Positions 1 to 27,334 of a stretch of DNA of 39,904 nucleotides are shown piece after piece. Position 1 is the stretch's first letter, and each line of letters opens with the position of its first letter. The DNA is taken from positions 1 to 39,904 of the forward strand of contig CALWTQ010000032.1 of assembly GCA_944384505.1 (NCBI GenBank), written 5' to 3'. A program made the translations under genes and the position numbers. The stretch is from an uncultured Mediterraneibacter sp. (GTDB lineage: Bacteria; Bacillota; Clostridia; Lachnospirales; Lachnospiraceae). The notes under the pieces are model-generated. The model did not search any database. It was not told where the DNA came from and saw only the letters and a program-made list of their open reading frames with translations.

Positions 1-114
1 AAAGTCACATCTCCCGGCTGTCCCCTTCCCCAGAAAGTATACTCAAGCCGTCCGCTCCGCTTCCTGCGTATTTCCAGTCGGAAGTGTTATTGCCCTAAAC
101 AGGCTGAAACGCAC

Positions 115-517
115 AACTGGCGCGGCTTGTAGGCTTTCCATTACGAAAGTCTTCCGGCCGCGCCTGCTTCTTTTGACAGCTATAAATTCATTAACTTCCG
201 GCTTGAAAAGCCCAGAAAACAGCCCCATTTCAAGAAAGATTCTGCGGGGATGGAGGATGGCGACGGGCGCCTTCGGAAGGGGATTAGTGAAACTCGAAGT
301 TCCGGTTACGGATGTTGGGACAGACGGAGAGATTTGTCTGAGCGAAGCGAGTTGCTCTCCGTCTGTCCCTGCTTTTAATCCGTGGCTGGGACTTCCTAGT
401 TTCCCTTATCCCCTGGAGCGAAGCCCGGAGCCATCCTCCATCCCCGCAGAATACGTTTTTGAAATATTCCCTGTTTTCGGACGTTTTGCATCCGGACGTT
501 AGTGAACTTTATAGCTG
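115..517 (-). repeat. Long palindromic 3'-end element, copy 1
   Basis: Non-coding element homologous to 22337-22749 in opposite genome orientation. Read on the minus strand it begins CAGCTATAAAGTTCACTAAC at 517, five bases past the stop codon of the ABC permease. It runs through one arm, an apical stem (318-331 paired with 355-368, 14 perfect bp) around a 23-nt loop (332-354), then the returning arm to about 177. A separate GC-rich hairpin follows (GGCGCGGC 119-126 paired with GCCGCGCC 157-164). Conserved arm blocks include ATTCTGCGGGGATGGAGGA and AGGGGAT. Compared with copy 2, the U-run after the last hairpin is lost on the minus strand, though a T-rich stretch follows it on the plus strand. 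Open frames through the element look like by-products of the palindrome. Bases 1-114 hold nothing I can identify. Function unknown. Confidence 0.85.
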
Positions 518-522
518 AAATC

Positions 523-3087
523 TTATTCTACCCGTCTTAATTTTTCTACTATACTTCCTTTATTCCACACTCTGTCAACTGCATATGCGATGAACGCCGC
601 CAGAGCGATGCAGGCGAGGGCCGCCAGGACCGCAGGCGTGAGGATGAGGTGGTATTTTGCGAACCACCAGCCGGAGAGGAACCCTTTTACCGCAGTCAGT
701 GAGAGGAGAGCGCTTAAGGCGATGCTTAAGATCCCGGCCGATAAGGCGTACAGAATTCCTTCATATACGAAGAGCTTACAGAGCTGGCGGCGGCTCATGC
801 CGATGCTTCTCATGACTGCAAACTCGTTCTGGCGGGCGATAGCTCCGGTTAAGAGCACGTTGGTCAGGTTCAGGATGCCGATGACTGCGAAGATGAAAGA
901 GAGTACAATTCCCACTGCGGTGTAGGTCCCCTGGATCTCGAGGAAATCCTGTTCTGCGGAGAGGCGGGTGAGAACTCTGCCGCTTAACTGAGAAGCCATG
1001 GCAGTTACTTCCTCATTCAGGGAGTCAAAGGCGCCTTTTTCTGCGTTGAACGCGCAGACGAGAGGATCTGTGTCTTCAGGAAAGAGGGCGTGGAACTGCG
1101 GCTCTGAGAAGACAACGTTCTCATAAGCGCCCCAGGATGAAGAAGTGGAAAAACCTGAGGGAATGCCCGCAACAGCCAGTACTTCATACTCGTGTTCTTC
1201 CCCATTTATTATGGTTTTGATTCGGTCGCCTGCGTGATAATCCTGTGCCTCTGTAAAATATTCTCCGTCGTCTCTGAGAGTTCCGGCCATGATGACATAG
1301 TTCCCGCTGTTCAGCTTTTCATAGTTCAGCTCTCCCTCGACAAGAGTCATGTTGTTCATCATGTTTTCATCCCAGCCGTAGGCGGTGCAGCGCCAGTCGA
1401 AGTCGAGAATAGAAGCATCGATGGAGTCTTCAGTCAGTTCATCTGGCATAGTGGTTTTTTCTCCGTTAATTTCTGAAATGCCGATCTGGTAGCCCAGGTT
1501 TGTGAATGGGTATTCTTCCTGAGGAACGAGATGGACGTATACCTGTCCGAAGTCTTCTGTATGCTCCAGGGCGGCGAGCTGCCGGACGAGTACGGGGTTC
1601 AGAGTTTTTGTGTAGTCGTCCACGGAGTAATTCTCATAGGCCGCGCTTTGCACAGTAAAATCTGTGACTGCTTCTCTGCGGACATAGGTCTCTTCGTCAA
1701 AGCATCCTGTGGCGTTTAAGATGCTGTTTAAAAGGAGAATGCTAAGGGAGATACTCATCACCACGAGAGCTGTTCTGCCTTTGCTCCTGGTCAGATTAGC
1801 GCAGGCCATGCGGAAGATCCGGTGCCTGGAAGAACCGCCTTTCTTTGAGGTCTGTTTTCCGCTGTCACTTTCCTGGTACCGGAGAGCCTCCACAGGGGAG
1901 ACGCGGCCTGCCATCCGTCCGGGACGGCTGCAGCTTAAGGAAACGGTCAGGAAGGCAAACAGCGCGGCGCCGATCCAGAGAAGGACATGAGGCACAACGA
2001 ATACAGAGGCTCCCGCGCTGGTGGTAGCCATGATCAGGGGGAGCAGGGCATTTCCGAGAAGCCATCCGAAAATCAGCCCGAAGGGAATACCGATGGCGGA
2101 TAAGACATATCCCTGGCGTTTTACGATATAGCGGATCTGCTTCGGAGATGCTCCGATGGTCTTGAGCTGTCCATAGAGCCGGATATCCTTTAAGATGGAA
2201 ATGCGAAATATGTTGTAGATGATCAGGTATCCGGCGAACAGGATCAGCGCCACACCGGCAATGCCGCCTGCGATCATCTCACCTGGGATCGAGCTGTTTG
2301 TCTCATAGGCGGGATTTACATTGTGGATGACAAAGTCCGCCTCCCCGCGCTCCGCGTCCGGGTTAAACCCGGCCCGTTCTATGACGGCGTTAAGCTCGCC
2401 CTCGATGTCATTGTCGGAGTCAAAAGTTCCGCGCACAGACCAGGATCCGGGAACAGTGGCGTCGTGCTTGATGGTACTCTCATCGATCCTGTTTTTAAGG
2501 AATGGCTCGGATACAAGGATTGTTGAGCGCTGCTCGTATTTTTCGCCTTCCCAGATGCCGCACAGAGTAAATTCAGCTGTCTTAACTCCGCTGTCCGTGA
2601 TGTACTGAATGGAGATCTTTGTTCCGAGCCTGGGCTCTGCTCCAAGGAGGCGGAGCACTTCTGTGTCAAGGGCAGCTTCGTATTCTTCCTGAGGCATATG
2701 TCCTTCTGTGAGATCAATATAGTTTAAGCTGGCGTGGGTTTCGTCCATCCACGCCATATTTACGTTCAGATTAATAAGCTCCGGATTCCCTACGGACCAG
2801 AGCGAACGCTCCGCGCCCGCTTCTTTCCATGCGGGATCAGAGAGGATCTGCTCTGTCTCTTCCGTTGTGAGATACTTAACAGAAGCCATGGCGCGTGTCC
2901 CGGACTGGCGGACGGCCTGCTCTTTTGTGCTGACTTGAACTCCCTGTACGACAGTCGCTACGGTCATAAACAGAACCGCAGTCAGGACAATGGCCAGAAG
3001 GGCGATTACGTTTCGGATCTTATTTGCCTTTAAGCAGTTCCCGGACAATGTCCGGATGAAACGTTTGTTATCGTTTTTCAGCAGCAT
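523..3087 (-). CDS. ABC transporter permease, FtsX/MacB type
   Basis: Membrane subunit of a MacB/LolE-like exporter; such proteins move peptides, lipids or antimicrobials, or transmit force across the membrane, rather than importing nutrients. The 854-residue protein has a duplicated FtsX layout: TM1 about 27-50, an extracytoplasmic domain to about 265, three TM segments (about 270-385), a fifth at about 440-464, a second outside domain to about 730, and three final TM segments to about 842. It starts right behind its ATPase, with GGAGGTG 6 nt ahead of the ATG. Together with the upstream kinase and regulator it resembles the detoxification modules of Firmicutes, but two large outer domains and eight TM segments differ from the ten-TM BceB type. 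Substrate unknown. The stop codon is followed after 5 nt by the long palindromic element. Confidence 0.9.
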   Translation of the reverse strand: MLLKNDNKRFIRTLSGNCLKANKIRNVIALLAIVLTAVLFMTVATVVQGVQVSTKEQAVRQSGTRAMASVKYLTTEETEQILSDPAWKEAGAERSLWSVGNPELINLNVNMAWMDETHASLNYIDLTEGHMPQEEYEAALDTEVLRLLGAEPRLGTKISIQYITDSGVKTAEFTLCGIWEGEKYEQRSTILVSEPFLKNRIDESTIKHDATVPGSWSVRGTFDSDNDIEGELNAVIERAGFNPDAERGEADFVIHNVNPAYETNSSIPGEMIAGGIAGVALILFAGYLIIYNIFRISILKDIRLYGQLKTIGASPKQIRYIVKRQGYVLSAIGIPFGLIFGWLLGNALLPLIMATTSAGASVFVVPHVLLWIGAALFAFLTVSLSCSRPGRMAGRVSPVEALRYQESDSGKQTSKKGGSSRHRIFRMACANLTRSKGRTALVVMSISLSILLLNSILNATGCFDEETYVRREAVTDFTVQSAAYENYSVDDYTKTLNPVLVRQLAALEHTEDFGQVYVHLVPQEEYPFTNLGYQIGISEINGEKTTMPDELTEDSIDASILDFDWRCTAYGWDENMMNNMTLVEGELNYEKLNSGNYVIMAGTLRDDGEYFTEAQDYHAGDRIKTIINGEEHEYEVLAVAGIPSGFSTSSSWGAYENVVFSEPQFHALFPEDTDPLVCAFNAEKGAFDSLNEEVTAMASQLSGRVLTRLSAEQDFLEIQGTYTAVGIVLSFIFAVIGILNLTNVLLTGAIARQNEFAVMRSIGMSRRQLCKLFVYEGILYALSAGILSIALSALLSLTAVKGFLSGWWFAKYHLILTPAVLAALACIALAAFIAYAVDRVWNKGSIVEKLRRVE

Positions 3088-19596: not shown

Positions 19597-20439
19597 ATGA
19601 AGCGGTTTTCTAGGCTGGCGCTGCCTTATATTGTGTGGGCTGCGCTGATGCTGGTGCTTCCTATGGCCCTGATCGCTCTTTATTCGGTCATGGAGCAGGG
19701 AAACAGCATCATTTCCTTTTCTTTTACACTGGATCACTATATCAAGTTTTTCACGGATCCGGATTTCCTGCTGATCCTGTGGAGATCCATCGCCATTGCG
19801 GTGAAGACGACTATTATCTGCCTGATCCTGGGATACCCGGCGGCTTATGTGATCTCAAAAAGCAGTGAAAAAGCGCAGAACATCCTGATTCTGTGCATTA
19901 CCCTTCCCATGTGGATCAACATGCTCGTCCGCACTTACGCCTGGATCGGGCTTTTGAGCGAAGGAGGTCTCATTCAGCGTATCTTAAGCCTTTTCGGCCT
20001 CGGAGATATGGAGCTCCTTTATACGGAGGGGGCTGTGCTGCTCGGCATGGTTTACAATTTCCTGCCCTTTATGATCCTGCAGGTGCATACGTCTCTGACA
20101 AAGATGGATCACTCCCTTTTAGAGGCCAGCGCGGATCTTGGAGCCAATCCGGTGCAGACTTTCCGCAGAGTGACCCTGCCGCTGTCTCTCCCGGGAGTGA
20201 TCAATGGGATCACGCTTGTTTTCCTTCCGGCGGTGAGTTCCTTTTTCATCCCCAAGCTCTTGGGCGGCGGACAATATTTCCTCATCGGAAATATGATCGA
20301 AAACCAGTTTATCACAGTCGGCGAGTGGAATTTTGGAAGTGCTATTTCTATGATTATCGCCGTGATTATGATGCTGCTGATGATGGCGGTGCGCAGGATT
20401 GAGATCCGCAACCAGGGCGGAAAGGGGGCGGAAGCATGA
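19597..20439 (+). CDS. potB: Spermidine/putrescine ABC transporter permease
   Basis: First membrane subunit of the polyamine importer, 280 residues with six predicted TM segments. The EAA loop that docks onto the ATPase is seen in LLEASADLGANPVQTFRRVTLPLSLPG. The start codon follows directly on the potA stop with no spacer and GGGAGG upstream, and the end overlaps potCD by four bases (ATGA). Homology to PotB/PotH type permeases is clear; the subunit set potA-potB-potCD is complete. Confidence 0.94.
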   Translation: MKRFSRLALPYIVWAALMLVLPMALIALYSVMEQGNSIISFSFTLDHYIKFFTDPDFLLILWRSIAIAVKTTIICLILGYPAAYVISKSSEKAQNILILCITLPMWINMLVRTYAWIGLLSEGGLIQRILSLFGLGDMELLYTEGAVLLGMVYNFLPFMILQVHTSLTKMDHSLLEASADLGANPVQTFRRVTLPLSLPGVINGITLVFLPAVSSFFIPKLLGGGQYFLIGNMIENQFITVGEWNFGSAISMIIAVIMMLLMMAVRRIEIRNQGGKGAEA

Positions 20440-22331
20440 AAAAGAACAGACGTCCTTTAGGGAAAATATTAATGTTTCTGATGATCGCCTTTTTCTATCT
20501 CCCGATCATCTACATGGTGGTTTTCTCGTTCAATGAGAGTAAATCACTGACCAGCTTTACCGGGTTTTCTCTGCGCTGGTATCAGCATATGCTGGAGTCC
20601 AGCGATATGATGACCGCGCTCTACACTACGTTCAGCGTGGCGATTCTGGCGACTCTGATCTCCACGGTTGTGGGGACGGTTGCAGCCATAGGTTTAAGCA
20701 GCTCCAGGAAGCTCATACGGAATATTATGGAGCAGGTGGACAATCTCCCCATGATGAACCCGGAGATTGTGACCGCGATCGGTTTTATGCTTCTTTTCAT
20801 CACCTTCCAGGTGGAAAAAGGGTATGTGACCATGCTGCTGGCGCATATTGCGTTCTGTATCCCCTATGTGATTCTGTCCGTTATGCCGAAGATCCGTTCC
20901 CTGGATCCAAACCTGGCTGACGCGGCTATGGATCTGGGGGCAACGCCATGGAAAGCGCTCACAAAGGTGATCGTGCCTCAGATTATGCCCGGAATCATCT
21001 CGGGCGGTCTGATCGCGTTTACTATGTCCGTGGACGACTTCATTATCTCCTACTTTGTAACCGGGCAGGGGGTAAAAAACTTAAGTATCGTGGTCTACAC
21101 TATGAGCAAGCGTGTGAACCCCAGCATTAATGCAGTGTCCACTCTCGTGGTAGTGATCATTACCATTGTCCTTGCGGCCGTGAATTTAGGCCCTGTGATC
21201 GTGGCAAAGAAAAGTGTGCGGGCTGAGCTTGGAAAGCGCAGAAGGCTTTTCCCGGCAGCGGCGGGATGCCTGCTTGTGCTTCTCGTTGTGTTTGCGGTTT
21301 ACCAGGGAAGATCCGGGAGCGGGGACCGGCCGTATGAGGGACAGACCCTCCGGATCTATAACTGGGGTGAGTATACCGGCGAAAACATTATCCCTGATTT
21401 TGAGGAAGAAACCGGCGCCACGGTGGTGATGGAGAACTTTGATTCCAATGAGCAGATGTATATTAAGGTGGCTAATGGTGAATCCTATGATATCCTTGTG
21501 CCAAGCGATTACATGATACAGAGGCTGATTGAGGAAGGCTATTTACAGAAACTGGATAAATCAAAGCTCACCTGCATGGACAAGCTCTCAGACGCTGTAA
21601 AGGGACTGCCCTATGATCCAAATAATGATTACTCCGTGCCCTATTTCTGGGGGACTGTGGGAATTGTCTATGATAAGACTAAGGTGGACATAGAAGATCT
21701 GGAGCGGGAAGGATATAATATCTTCCTGGATGAAAAATATAAGGGAGACGTCTATCTTTACGATTCAGAGAGAGACTCCTTTATGATGGCGCTCAAAGCC
21801 CTGGGATATTCCATGAATACAGAAAATGAAGCAGAGCTCCAGGAAGCCTATGAGTGGCTGGTACAGTGTGTGCAGACTATGGACACAGAGATTGTGACGG
21901 ATGAGATCATCGATAACATGGCGCAGGGGAGAAAGGCGCTCGGCCTGATCTATTCAGGAGACGCGACTTATGTCATGGCGGAGAATGAAAACATGGGATA
22001 CTTCATGCCGGAGACGGGAACCAACCTCTGGTCCGACGCCATGGTTATCCCTGCCAACGCGCAAAATCCTGACCTCGCGCACGAATTTATAAATTATGCC
22101 AGCGATTATGACGGAGCCTATGACAATTCCAGCTATGTGGGATACACCTCTGCCAACCAGGAAGTTATGGACGTCCTGTCCGGCGAGGGAGGCGAATTCG
22201 AAGGAATCAACGCTTACATTCCTCGGACAGACAATGAGAACGACGAAGTGTTCGTGTACAACGCGGATACAAAAAAGATCATCAGCGATCTGTGGAGCAG
22301 AGTAAAGATCGCGGCAAGTAACGCGGATTAA
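20436..22331 (+). CDS. potC: PotC permease fused to PotD polyamine-binding protein
   Basis: One 631-residue protein combining the second permease and the substrate-binding subunit. Residues 1 to about 265 are PotC-like with TM segments and an EAA loop (AAMDLGATPWKALTKVIVPQIMPG). A further TM at about 270-288 (LFPAAAGCLLVLLVVFAVY) puts the rest outside the cell. From about 303 (LRIYNWGEYTGENIIPDFEEETG) to the end it is a PotD-type binding protein, including SDYMIQRL and the acidic and aromatic pocket segments such as YFWGTVGIVYD. Such potCD fusions are known in Firmicutes and tether the binding protein without a lipoprotein signal. Translation is coupled to potB by ATGA. The stop codon is followed after 5 nt by the long palindromic element. 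Confidence 0.94.
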   Translation: MKKNRRPLGKILMFLMIAFFYLPIIYMVVFSFNESKSLTSFTGFSLRWYQHMLESSDMMTALYTTFSVAILATLISTVVGTVAAIGLSSSRKLIRNIMEQVDNLPMMNPEIVTAIGFMLLFITFQVEKGYVTMLLAHIAFCIPYVILSVMPKIRSLDPNLADAAMDLGATPWKALTKVIVPQIMPGIISGGLIAFTMSVDDFIISYFVTGQGVKNLSIVVYTMSKRVNPSINAVSTLVVVIITIVLAAVNLGPVIVAKKSVRAELGKRRRLFPAAAGCLLVLLVVFAVYQGRSGSGDRPYEGQTLRIYNWGEYTGENIIPDFEEETGATVVMENFDSNEQMYIKVANGESYDILVPSDYMIQRLIEEGYLQKLDKSKLTCMDKLSDAVKGLPYDPNNDYSVPYFWGTVGIVYDKTKVDIEDLEREGYNIFLDEKYKGDVYLYDSERDSFMMALKALGYSMNTENEAELQEAYEWLVQCVQTMDTEIVTDEIIDNMAQGRKALGLIYSGDATYVMAENENMGYFMPETGTNLWSDAMVIPANAQNPDLAHEFINYASDYDGAYDNSSYVGYTSANQEVMDVLSGEGGEFEGINAYIPRTDNENDEVFVYNADTKKIISDLWSRVKIAASNAD

Positions 22332-22336
22332 GGGGG

Positions 22337-22742
22337 CTGCTATAAAGTTCACTAACTTCCGGATGAGAAACGTCCGAAAACAGAATCGATTCTCAAAACG
22401 TATTCTGCGGGGATGGAGGACGGCGATGGGCTTCGCTCCAGGGGATAAGGGAAACTAAAAGCTGCGGCGACAGACTAAATGCAAGGACTGACGGTGGACA
22501 ACTCGCATCCGCTCAGACAATTCCACCGTCAGTCCTAACGTCTGTCACCGCAGCTTTAACTTTCCCTAATCCCCTTTCGAAGGCGCCCGTCGCCATCCTC
22601 CATCCCCGCAGAATTTTTTCTCGAAATGGGGCTGTTTTCTGGGCTTTTTCAGGCCGGAAGTCAGTGAATATATAGCTGCTGCGAGAAACAGGCGCGGCCG
22701 GAAAGCTTTCGTAGAGGAAAGCCCTCAAGCCGCGCCAGTTTC
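22337..22742 (+). repeat. Long palindromic 3'-end element, copy 2
   Basis: Second copy of the element at 115-517, here on the plus strand in the same sense as the upstream pot operon. Arm 22337-22484 folds on 22536-22680. The apical stem is GGACTGACGGTGGA (22485-22498) with TCCACCGTCAGTCC (22522-22535), 14 perfect bp, around a 23-nt loop 22499-22521. Next to it GCTGCGG (22471-22477) pairs with CCGCAGC (22548-22554). Four positions of the apical stem differ from copy 1 and all four are compensated. The element ends in the terminator at 22685-22749. No protein-coding pattern is convincing in 22332-22842. Confidence 0.85.
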
Positions 22743-22749
22743 TTTTTTA
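22685..22749 (+). terminator. Terminator closing the pot operon, part of the repeat element
   Basis: GAAAC-A-GGCGCGGC (22685-22698) pairs with GCCGCGCC-A-GTTTC (22729-22742), with GGAAAG/CTTTCC-type pairs inside, followed by TTTTTTA. It is strong and well formed. The same hairpin, with a decayed U-run, is conserved at 119-164 in copy 1. Confidence 0.8.
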
Positions 22750-22779
22750 TTGGAGTTCTTACTCTGGGTGTGTTATCAT
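22750..22779 (+). promoter_or_regulatory. Promoter of the M50-like protease gene
   Basis: -35 TTGGAG (22750-22755), 18-bp spacer, -10 TATCAT (22774-22779), directly behind the terminator of the pot operon. Confidence 0.55.
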
Positions 22780-27137: not shown

Positions 27138-27334
27138 ATGATGTTGGGGCAAAAGCCCCCAACTACGATGCCTGCGGATTGTTCCGTGCTACGCACTCCC
27201 ACAATCCGCCCCAATATTCGCATATCGTGGGATATGCATCCCACTTTTATGCTCATATCGGGGCGGGTCCCAAGGTCTTTCACCCACTTATGAGCAAGCT
27301 CATGTGGGCTTAGACCTTTTGACCCTGGCATCAT
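27138..27334. repeat. Compact 197-bp multi-hairpin element with ATGATG/CATCAT ends
   Basis: Intergenic element between the GH25 gene and prmA. The ends are inverted (ATGATG at 27138 and CATCAT at 27329-27334, extended by matching GGG and CAAAAG blocks). Inside are four consecutive hairpins: 27144-27162 (GGGGC/GCCCC); 27174-27209 (GCGGATTGT/ACAATCCGC); 27209-27263 (CCCC/GGGG with an ATAT stem and an inner GTGGGAT/ATCCCAC); and 27265-27325 (GGGTC, AAGGTCT and CCCAC paired with GTGGG, AGACCTT and GACCC). I recall similar translated sequences as spurious hypothetical proteins in Lachnospiraceae, which would make it a dispersed repeat; that is memory, not a search. Confidence 0.65.

Follow-up and report, generated by a model that had tools for sequence, protein, structure and literature searches.

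Among the closest described counterparts of the repeat analysed here are the REP sequences and their BIME and REPIN arrangements, of the GTAG and CGTC families. As described in PMC3733652, these are intergenic palindromes that occur in high copy number, form inverted pairs and lie near gene 3′ ends, and whose ends can supply stop codons. The same paper also describes some Y1 genes flanked by long self-complementary TIRs. Template switching between the arms of a palindrome is a published source of paired changes, according to a second paper (PMC8794818).

The window, by which we mean the whole stretch of 39,904 nucleotides that was analysed, contains two long palindromes, in the places where the original prediction put them. 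Both fold far better than shuffled sequence: window 100-525 (-) gives -207.5 kcal/mol (z -14.2) and window 22325-22760 (+) gives -244.9 kcal/mol (z -16.6), with 0/100 shuffles as good in either case. Their features, together with the only Rfam match in the window, are as follows.

177..517 (-): copy 1, giant hairpin P1 (341 nt), from the fold and from profile positions 1-517, which fall on window 517-1
517-498 (-): copy 1, outer end CAGCTATAAAGTTCACTAAC, 5 nt past the end of the gene at 523-3087 (-)
334..354 (+): copy 1, apical loop TTGTCTGAGCG-AA-GCGAGTTG, on the loop-plus strand, flanked by 14-bp arms at 318-331 and 355-368, read from the sequence
119..164 (-): copy 1, central GC-rich hairpin GGCGCGGC...GCCGCGCC, the spacer between P1 and P2, conserved across the 56 aligned copies
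1..106 (-): copy 1, inner arm of giant hairpin P2, with the remainder past the contig start; the profile match stops at position 517, which is window base 1, and full-length copies have P2 here
22337..22678 (+): copy 2, giant hairpin P1 (342 nt), beginning 5 nt beyond the end of the ORF at 20436-22331 (+)
22500..22520 (-): copy 2, apical loop TTGTCTGAGCG-GAT-GCGAGTT
22691..22736 (+): copy 2, central GC-rich hairpin, from the fold and the sequence; the T-rich run behind it extends to about 22749
22737..22760 (+): copy 2, right border, with no P2 and with unique sequence past the central hairpin, from the profile match and multi-copy comparison
27166-27333 (-): Clostridiales-1 RNA (RF01699), Rfam match

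The ORF that precedes copy 2 adjoins PotA- and PotB-like ORFs and looks like a fusion of a PotC permease with a PotD binding protein.

In each copy the 14-bp apical stem (GGACAGACGGAGAG and GGACTGACGGTGGA) is perfectly paired with the arm opposite it, and all four differences between the two stems are compensated, exactly as had been claimed. The copies were said to be compared in the same orientation. In fact the loop is on the + strand in copy 1 and on the - strand in copy 2, but because the arms are palindromic the stem comparison is still valid. A near-constant loop with three variable bases describes copy 2 (GAT) but not copy 1, in which the loop is one base shorter and has two spacer bases (AA). 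The ranges 115-517 and 22337-22749, offered as hairpin units, do hold the giant hairpins but also include the central hairpins at 119-164 and 22691-22736, and the bounds of copy 1 are too narrow, the repeat continuing to the contig start. The count of two copies was a considerable underestimate: 40 long same-sense matches were obtained from the 40 scored of 291 first-look candidates in the genome.

The palindrome in the window is part of a unit of ~760 bp, which consists of P1 (~341 nt), a 46-nt GC-rich hairpin and P2 (~350 nt), the giant hairpins being about 333-360 nt in the copies measured. P1 and P2 are inverted with respect to each other around the central hairpin, as are the outer ends. 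The loop is on the bottom strand in P1 and on the top strand in P2, so that both loop-plus strands point outward. From the fetched loci 56 distinct full-length copies were extracted, with unique flanks, and nearly all have the ends CAGCTATAAAGTTCACTAAC... and ...GTTAGTGCGCTAAATAGCTG. The consensus ends are CAGCTAT...ATAGCTG, and CGTC is seen only ~20 nt into the paired arm. End-like sites at up to 3 mismatches number 211 + 189 = 400 in the genome of origin (3.95 Mb, 141 contigs), against 4 + 4 = 8 for a reversed-pattern control, and the genome therefore has more copies than the 56 extracted. Since long palindromes are normally unstable in bacteria, a palindromic repeat of such size and copy number is unusual. 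Shortened forms also occur, comprising P1 alone, P1 with the central hairpin (as in window copy 2, which is without P2), and internal deletions. Copy 1 of the window is interrupted by the start of the contig, and repeats of this element do break assemblies.

Several individual copies are worth describing. A further short copy of the element end (CAGCTATTTAGTTCAA-like) directly adjoins the left border at six loci (L003, L006, L030, L089, L094 and L103), and a similar one is found at the right border in L004 and L009; these abutting ends may reflect a target preference or be remnants. At L024 (G000:C15:49353-49709) a gene for an IS200-type transposase lies between P1 and P2 of one copy, and seems to have inserted into the element. 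In a sister species (L047, G026:C9), one element matches its own profile over nearly its full length on both strands, meaning that P1 and P2 are alike there, and an inverted duplication of P1 may have given rise to P2.

For eight copies, the two flanks were joined and searched for in 58 genomes of the genus. Empty sites were found at three of these eight loci, where 10, 4, and 6 relatives spanning the junction were fetched and 20/20 were without the element, having a short intergenic sequence in its place. The relatives were chosen because their match spans the junction, and so the counts indicate that empty sites exist and not how frequent they are. The element is consequently an insertion. 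The original prediction favoured a selected RNA or cruciform over a decaying insertion; the pairing is indeed kept, yet the element is inserted at sites that are empty in relatives. Neither a large deletion nor a clear target duplication was seen at the empty sites, in a comparison across different species, and no target-site duplication was visible by eye in the flanks of the 56 copies.

The distribution within the genus is patchy. Copy 1 is matched in 9 of 61 genomes, its own included, and end counts are 351 in this genome, 58 in G005 and 56 in G026, with the others near the control level. One genome that scored 100% complete in 90 contigs has one full-length copy listed (G021:C4:54573, L031), with 82% identity over copy 1. 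This copy may be a recent acquisition, or what is left after loss of the rest. No match to 115-517 was found by blastn among phage and plasmid records.

The position of the element relative to genes was measured using mechanical ORF calls, with the coding end taken without its stop codon. Gene 3′ ends facing the left end lie at -8 to 10 nt in 32 of 40 cases, and those facing the right end at -16 to 12 nt in 22 of 30, the negative distances implying that the element itself supplies the stop codon. Gene 5′ ends facing the left end are 36 nt or more away in 37/41. In C. peptidivorans, whose genome has a similar loop, a motif close to the outer end of the hairpin lies at -9 to 19 nt in 24 of 31 facing 3′ ends. 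The element is extragenic, close to gene 3′ ends and paired in inverted orientation.

This placement, between stop codons (the 32/40) and the next promoter (the 37/41), is what would be expected of composite terminators or gene-end insulators that are spread by gene conversion and whose hairpins stop transcription. The central hairpin of copy 2 with its T-rich run looks like an intrinsic terminator, and adds to this view. However, a clear T run follows the central hairpin in copy 2 only, among the 31 copies listed and inspected by eye; hairpins of 340 nt far exceed what a terminator needs; and termination does not require a fixed tip. We regard a terminator function as the origin of these repeats as distinctly unlikely.

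Covariation was analysed in 39 P1 copies, a subset of those available: the two from the window and 37 others that lie on the + strand of their locus. These 39 sequences also served to derive the structure, one pair of which never forms. Changes on both sides are found in 38 of 139 pairs (30.1 in shuffles), 89.7% of cells pair (85.5% in shuffles), and 291 cells carry a double change (117.5 in shuffles); none of these values was reached in 500 shuffles. The covariation score is 0.161, compared with 0.089 ± 0.003 for shuffles and 0.070 or less when the structure is slid. Sliding also lowers pairing to 45.3% or less, although this control favours the structure because the structure came from the same sequences. 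The number of further pair types, 90, is not above that of shuffles (92.5; 440/500 as high). The proposal of covarying arms under a nearly fixed loop is therefore borne out against both shuffle and slide controls. In C. peptidivorans double changes occur in 52 of 98 pairs, among them exchanges of G-C for C-G for which hardly any intermediates are seen.

These results invite the explanation that the element is a selected structured RNA, either a 3′ UTR or a stand-alone transcript, in which compensatory mutations preserve the fold and the loop is the binding site of a conserved protein. The covariation above shuffles fits this, as does the location directly after stop codons. However, covariation with a conserved loop had been taken as the signature of a selected RNA or cruciform, and while the covariation is real it is not in itself proof of a selected RNA, because template switching leaves the same mark and the transition to transversion ratios are equal. 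Stepwise compensation via G-U should enrich transitions among double changes. Once pairs without a clear Watson-Crick majority had been dropped, double changes in this genome were 55:30 and one-sided changes 220:129 columns (Fisher p = 0.80), and in C. peptidivorans 40:31 and 112:100 columns (p = 0.68), the p values here and below being indicative only, as cells and columns are sequences and sites and not independent events. Equal ratios are as expected from arm copying, but the Clostridiales-1 RNA gives the same answer (24:14 and 35:31, p = 0.41), so the test is without a positive control.

RNA-level selection should also tolerate G-U far above A-C on one strand. On the loop-plus strand of this genome there are 838 G-U against 466 A-C cells, and, with the same pairs dropped, 96 against 65 columns (one-sided p = 0.009), which speaks for an RNA; in C. 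peptidivorans the two are nearly equal, at 240 against 218 cells and 50 against 41 columns (p = 0.20), which speaks against one. Two weak controls were used, Clostridiales-1 (24 copies, itself a dispersed repeat), with 53 G-U against 21 A-C cells and 17 against 16 columns, and 13 tRNAs, with 17 to 0, where ARAGORN may draw allowed pairs only. The counts point to a modest constraint at most: a single-strand constraint on the loop-plus strand is at most modest in this host, and none is detectable in C. peptidivorans. It moreover does not look like a constraint on the 3′ UTR of the adjacent gene, because in full-length copies a transcript of that gene runs first into the loop-minus strand of the nearer hairpin, whereas it is the loop-plus strand that has the excess of G-U.

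On our own reading of the sequence, tandem G·A pairs can be placed in the tip, giving it a k-turn-like form. Many tips however do not fit the GNRA rule for RNA loops, the third base often being a pyrimidine or the last base T. At gathering score, Rfam matched only RF01699 in the window, and on the element gave three microRNA matches far below threshold. The earlier statement that no known RNA class is suggested therefore holds for window and element alike, and the lack of a matching family again argues against a structured RNA. We consider a selected RNA unlikely.

The tip itself is not confined to this genus. The pattern TTGTCTGAGCGNNNGCGAGTT (18 fixed bases) occurs in at least 103 stretches of the genome collection, whereas we calculate that chance alone would give 7 or 8. 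In other genomes, 93 of 98 loop matches sit between complementary arms that beat all 40 shuffles, after 6 of 104 matches had been left out because their flank was too short; without 8 near-duplicates the figure is 85 of 90. Many of the matches come from records labelled Mediterraneibacter, and because their share is large the matches are not independent. Other labels include Blautia, several Clostridium, Gastranaerophilales, Porticoccaceae, MOLA455, Sphingobacterium, Desulfobulbaceae, Leptotrichia, and others, many of them MAGs; for a few, Haloterrigena being one, the match may be due to chance. By eye, the arms from different hosts look unrelated. Viral contigs gave 1 match to one exact loop pattern.

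Loops were counted at up to 3 mismatches in 28 of these other genomes. C. peptidivorans has 85 (control 1) and MOLA455 has 15 (control 1), and in some of the genomes the count is not clearly above the control (30 vs 29, 8 vs 7, 3 vs 5, 2 vs 2). In the phylum sample, the tip is present at up to 1 mismatch in 9 of 398 genomes, the genome of origin included, with 3 control matches. An inverted loop pair is present in 23 of the 40 C. peptidivorans loci fetched, 18 of these pairs having been preselected as pairs and 5 having a looser partner match, and in 23/23 the minus loop comes first, which is the outward order. The same order is seen in two genomes of the phylum sample (G115 and G380).

GC-GNNA-GC or GC-GAA-GC is the tip sequence of many copies, and G-A steps lie to either side of it. 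Minihairpins of the d(GCGAAGC) type are exceptionally stable in DNA. Other copies, including copy 2, end in T (GGAT) and do not fit this reading. A gene common to the neighbourhoods of the loop was sought at 80 of the 103 loop-bearing loci outside this genome; the cluster with most loci (14) consisted of spurious ORFs within the palindromes themselves, and the second largest had 8 loci. Literature searches, in which subscription journals were thinly covered, gave nothing related among the titles listed for the loop sequence, and for palindromic or hairpin repeats only surveys of REP, RAYT, HUH and stem-loop sequences were relevant.

The obvious candidate for a mobilising enzyme is the Y1/RAYT-like gene, which is found in 38 of 58 genomes of the genus and in this genome at G000:C50:19267-20031 (255 aa; L262, L270). 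The element could accordingly be a REPIN or TIR family mobilised specifically by this resident RAYT/TIRYT-like transposase, given that the gene is present, that inverted dimers next to stop codons are also a feature of REP families, and that some Y1 genes have long self-complementary TIRs (PMC3733652 for the last two points). The examination of 20 Y1 loci (19 distinct), most with ~1.5 kb on each side, is not in keeping with this: there was no match to the element profile, and the two loose matches, one to the end and one to the loop, look fortuitous. The gene does not appear to track the loop either: it is present in 11 of the 18 genomes that have at least three loops and in 27 of 40 others, several of the genomes being incomplete, and MOLA455, with its 15 loop matches, has no Y1 match. 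In the three genomes whose neighbours were read, the Y1 gene lies between the same two genes, presumably glyS and an aminopeptidase gene, as expected of a domesticated gene, which is what it looks like. With neither adjoining hairpins nor a clear relation to loop counts, the Y1/RAYT gene is not supported as the mobiliser, and its specific involvement is the least probable of the explanations considered here. No mobilising gene was found among the candidates and loci examined.

We conclude, with a probability of roughly 0.6, that the element is a REPIN-like, dispersed, non-autonomous mobile palindromic element of ~760 bp, the arms of which are partly homogenised by template switching and which is acted on in trans by a protein that reads its tip. 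The recurrent ends with unique flanks, the empty sites, the many copies, the outward loops, the adjacency to stop codons and the recurrence of the tip all lead to this reading. The tip, TTGTCTGAGCG(N2-3)GCGAGTT, would be a recognition site on folded single-stranded DNA or on an extruded hairpin, and would play for the mobilising protein a part like that proposed for REP hairpins with RAYT transposases. Such a protein, acting at both outward hairpins, would explain the conservation of the tip, the free divergence of the arms and the inverted pairing together. The complementarity of the arms would be kept by template switching, one arm being copied onto the other while the palindrome is folded in replication or transposition, and some constraint on pairing in the loop-plus strand would add to this. 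The ends bring stop codons of their own and the hairpins may stop transcription, which would make insertion beside stop codons tolerable.

Some of the results sit less comfortably with a mobile element of this kind. The only candidate gene, Y1/RAYT-like, is not flanked by hairpins in the loci examined and shows no clear correlation with loop counts. No duplication of the target site was seen, and in some of the 28 genomes loops are no more frequent than in the control. Several hosts have, by eye, an asymmetric internal loop in which GTTA faces TGNNTTTA, and pure arm copying would erase it. The finding that in this genome G-U exceeds A-C on the loop-plus strand leaves room for a constraint at the level of RNA or of a single strand, and the comparison of transitions and transversions has the weakness noted above.

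It is conceivable, although we would put the chances somewhat below even, that the element belongs to a widespread and previously undescribed bacterial class of mobile giant hairpins, with a common tip (YTGTYTGAGCG-N2-3-GCGAGTT), outward inverted pairing and host-specific arms, in which an enzyme would recognise or mobilise the element through its tip, in folded single-stranded DNA, and place it at gene ends. The common tip provides a handle for finding the protein involved, and allows genomes to be searched for a class that is invisible to similarity based on the arms. The element is also a test case for whether template switching can produce covariation without selection on an RNA, which bears on how new RNAs are called.

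Comparison with known systems places the element as follows. The original prediction had allowed for a known MITE with transposase-matching ends, and no transposase with these ends was found among the loci examined. The element resembles a MITE in being short, in having many copies, in having inverted ends (in nearly all of the 56) and in that no internal transposase gene was seen; it differs in that no target duplication was seen, no parent transposase was found, and it consists of two palindromes with a conserved tip. The Clostridiales-1 RNA (RF01699) is likewise structured and dispersed in the same genus, with at least 40 matches in one genome (G028; 40 scored of 152 candidates), and is also in the window, but its fold is different and the copy that was read has no such tip. 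This Rfam family may be a mobile repeat in its own right. In hairpins maintained by template switching, as described in PMC8794818, paired changes arise together and stems stay perfect, as they do here, but those hairpins are RNA genes whereas this is a mobile DNA repeat.

The TIR families of TIRYT genes (TIRtrons) are like the element in being long, sometimes self-complementary, often present as dimers and unrelated to GTAG (PMC3733652). They are, however, defined by the Y1 gene that they flank, and the element flanks none of the 19 Y1 loci examined. REP sequences are 20-40 bp in size, compared with ~340 nt for each hairpin of the element; they carry a GTAG or CGTC tag at the hairpin end, where the element has no such tag and its conserved mark is instead at the tip; and they go with RAYT transposases, a linkage not found here. 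Because of these differences in size, end tag and transposase linkage we class the element not as a member of the REP family but as REPIN-like, since with REP, BIME and REPIN sequences it shares inverted pairs, adjacency to gene 3′ ends, ends that supply stop codons, and high copy number.
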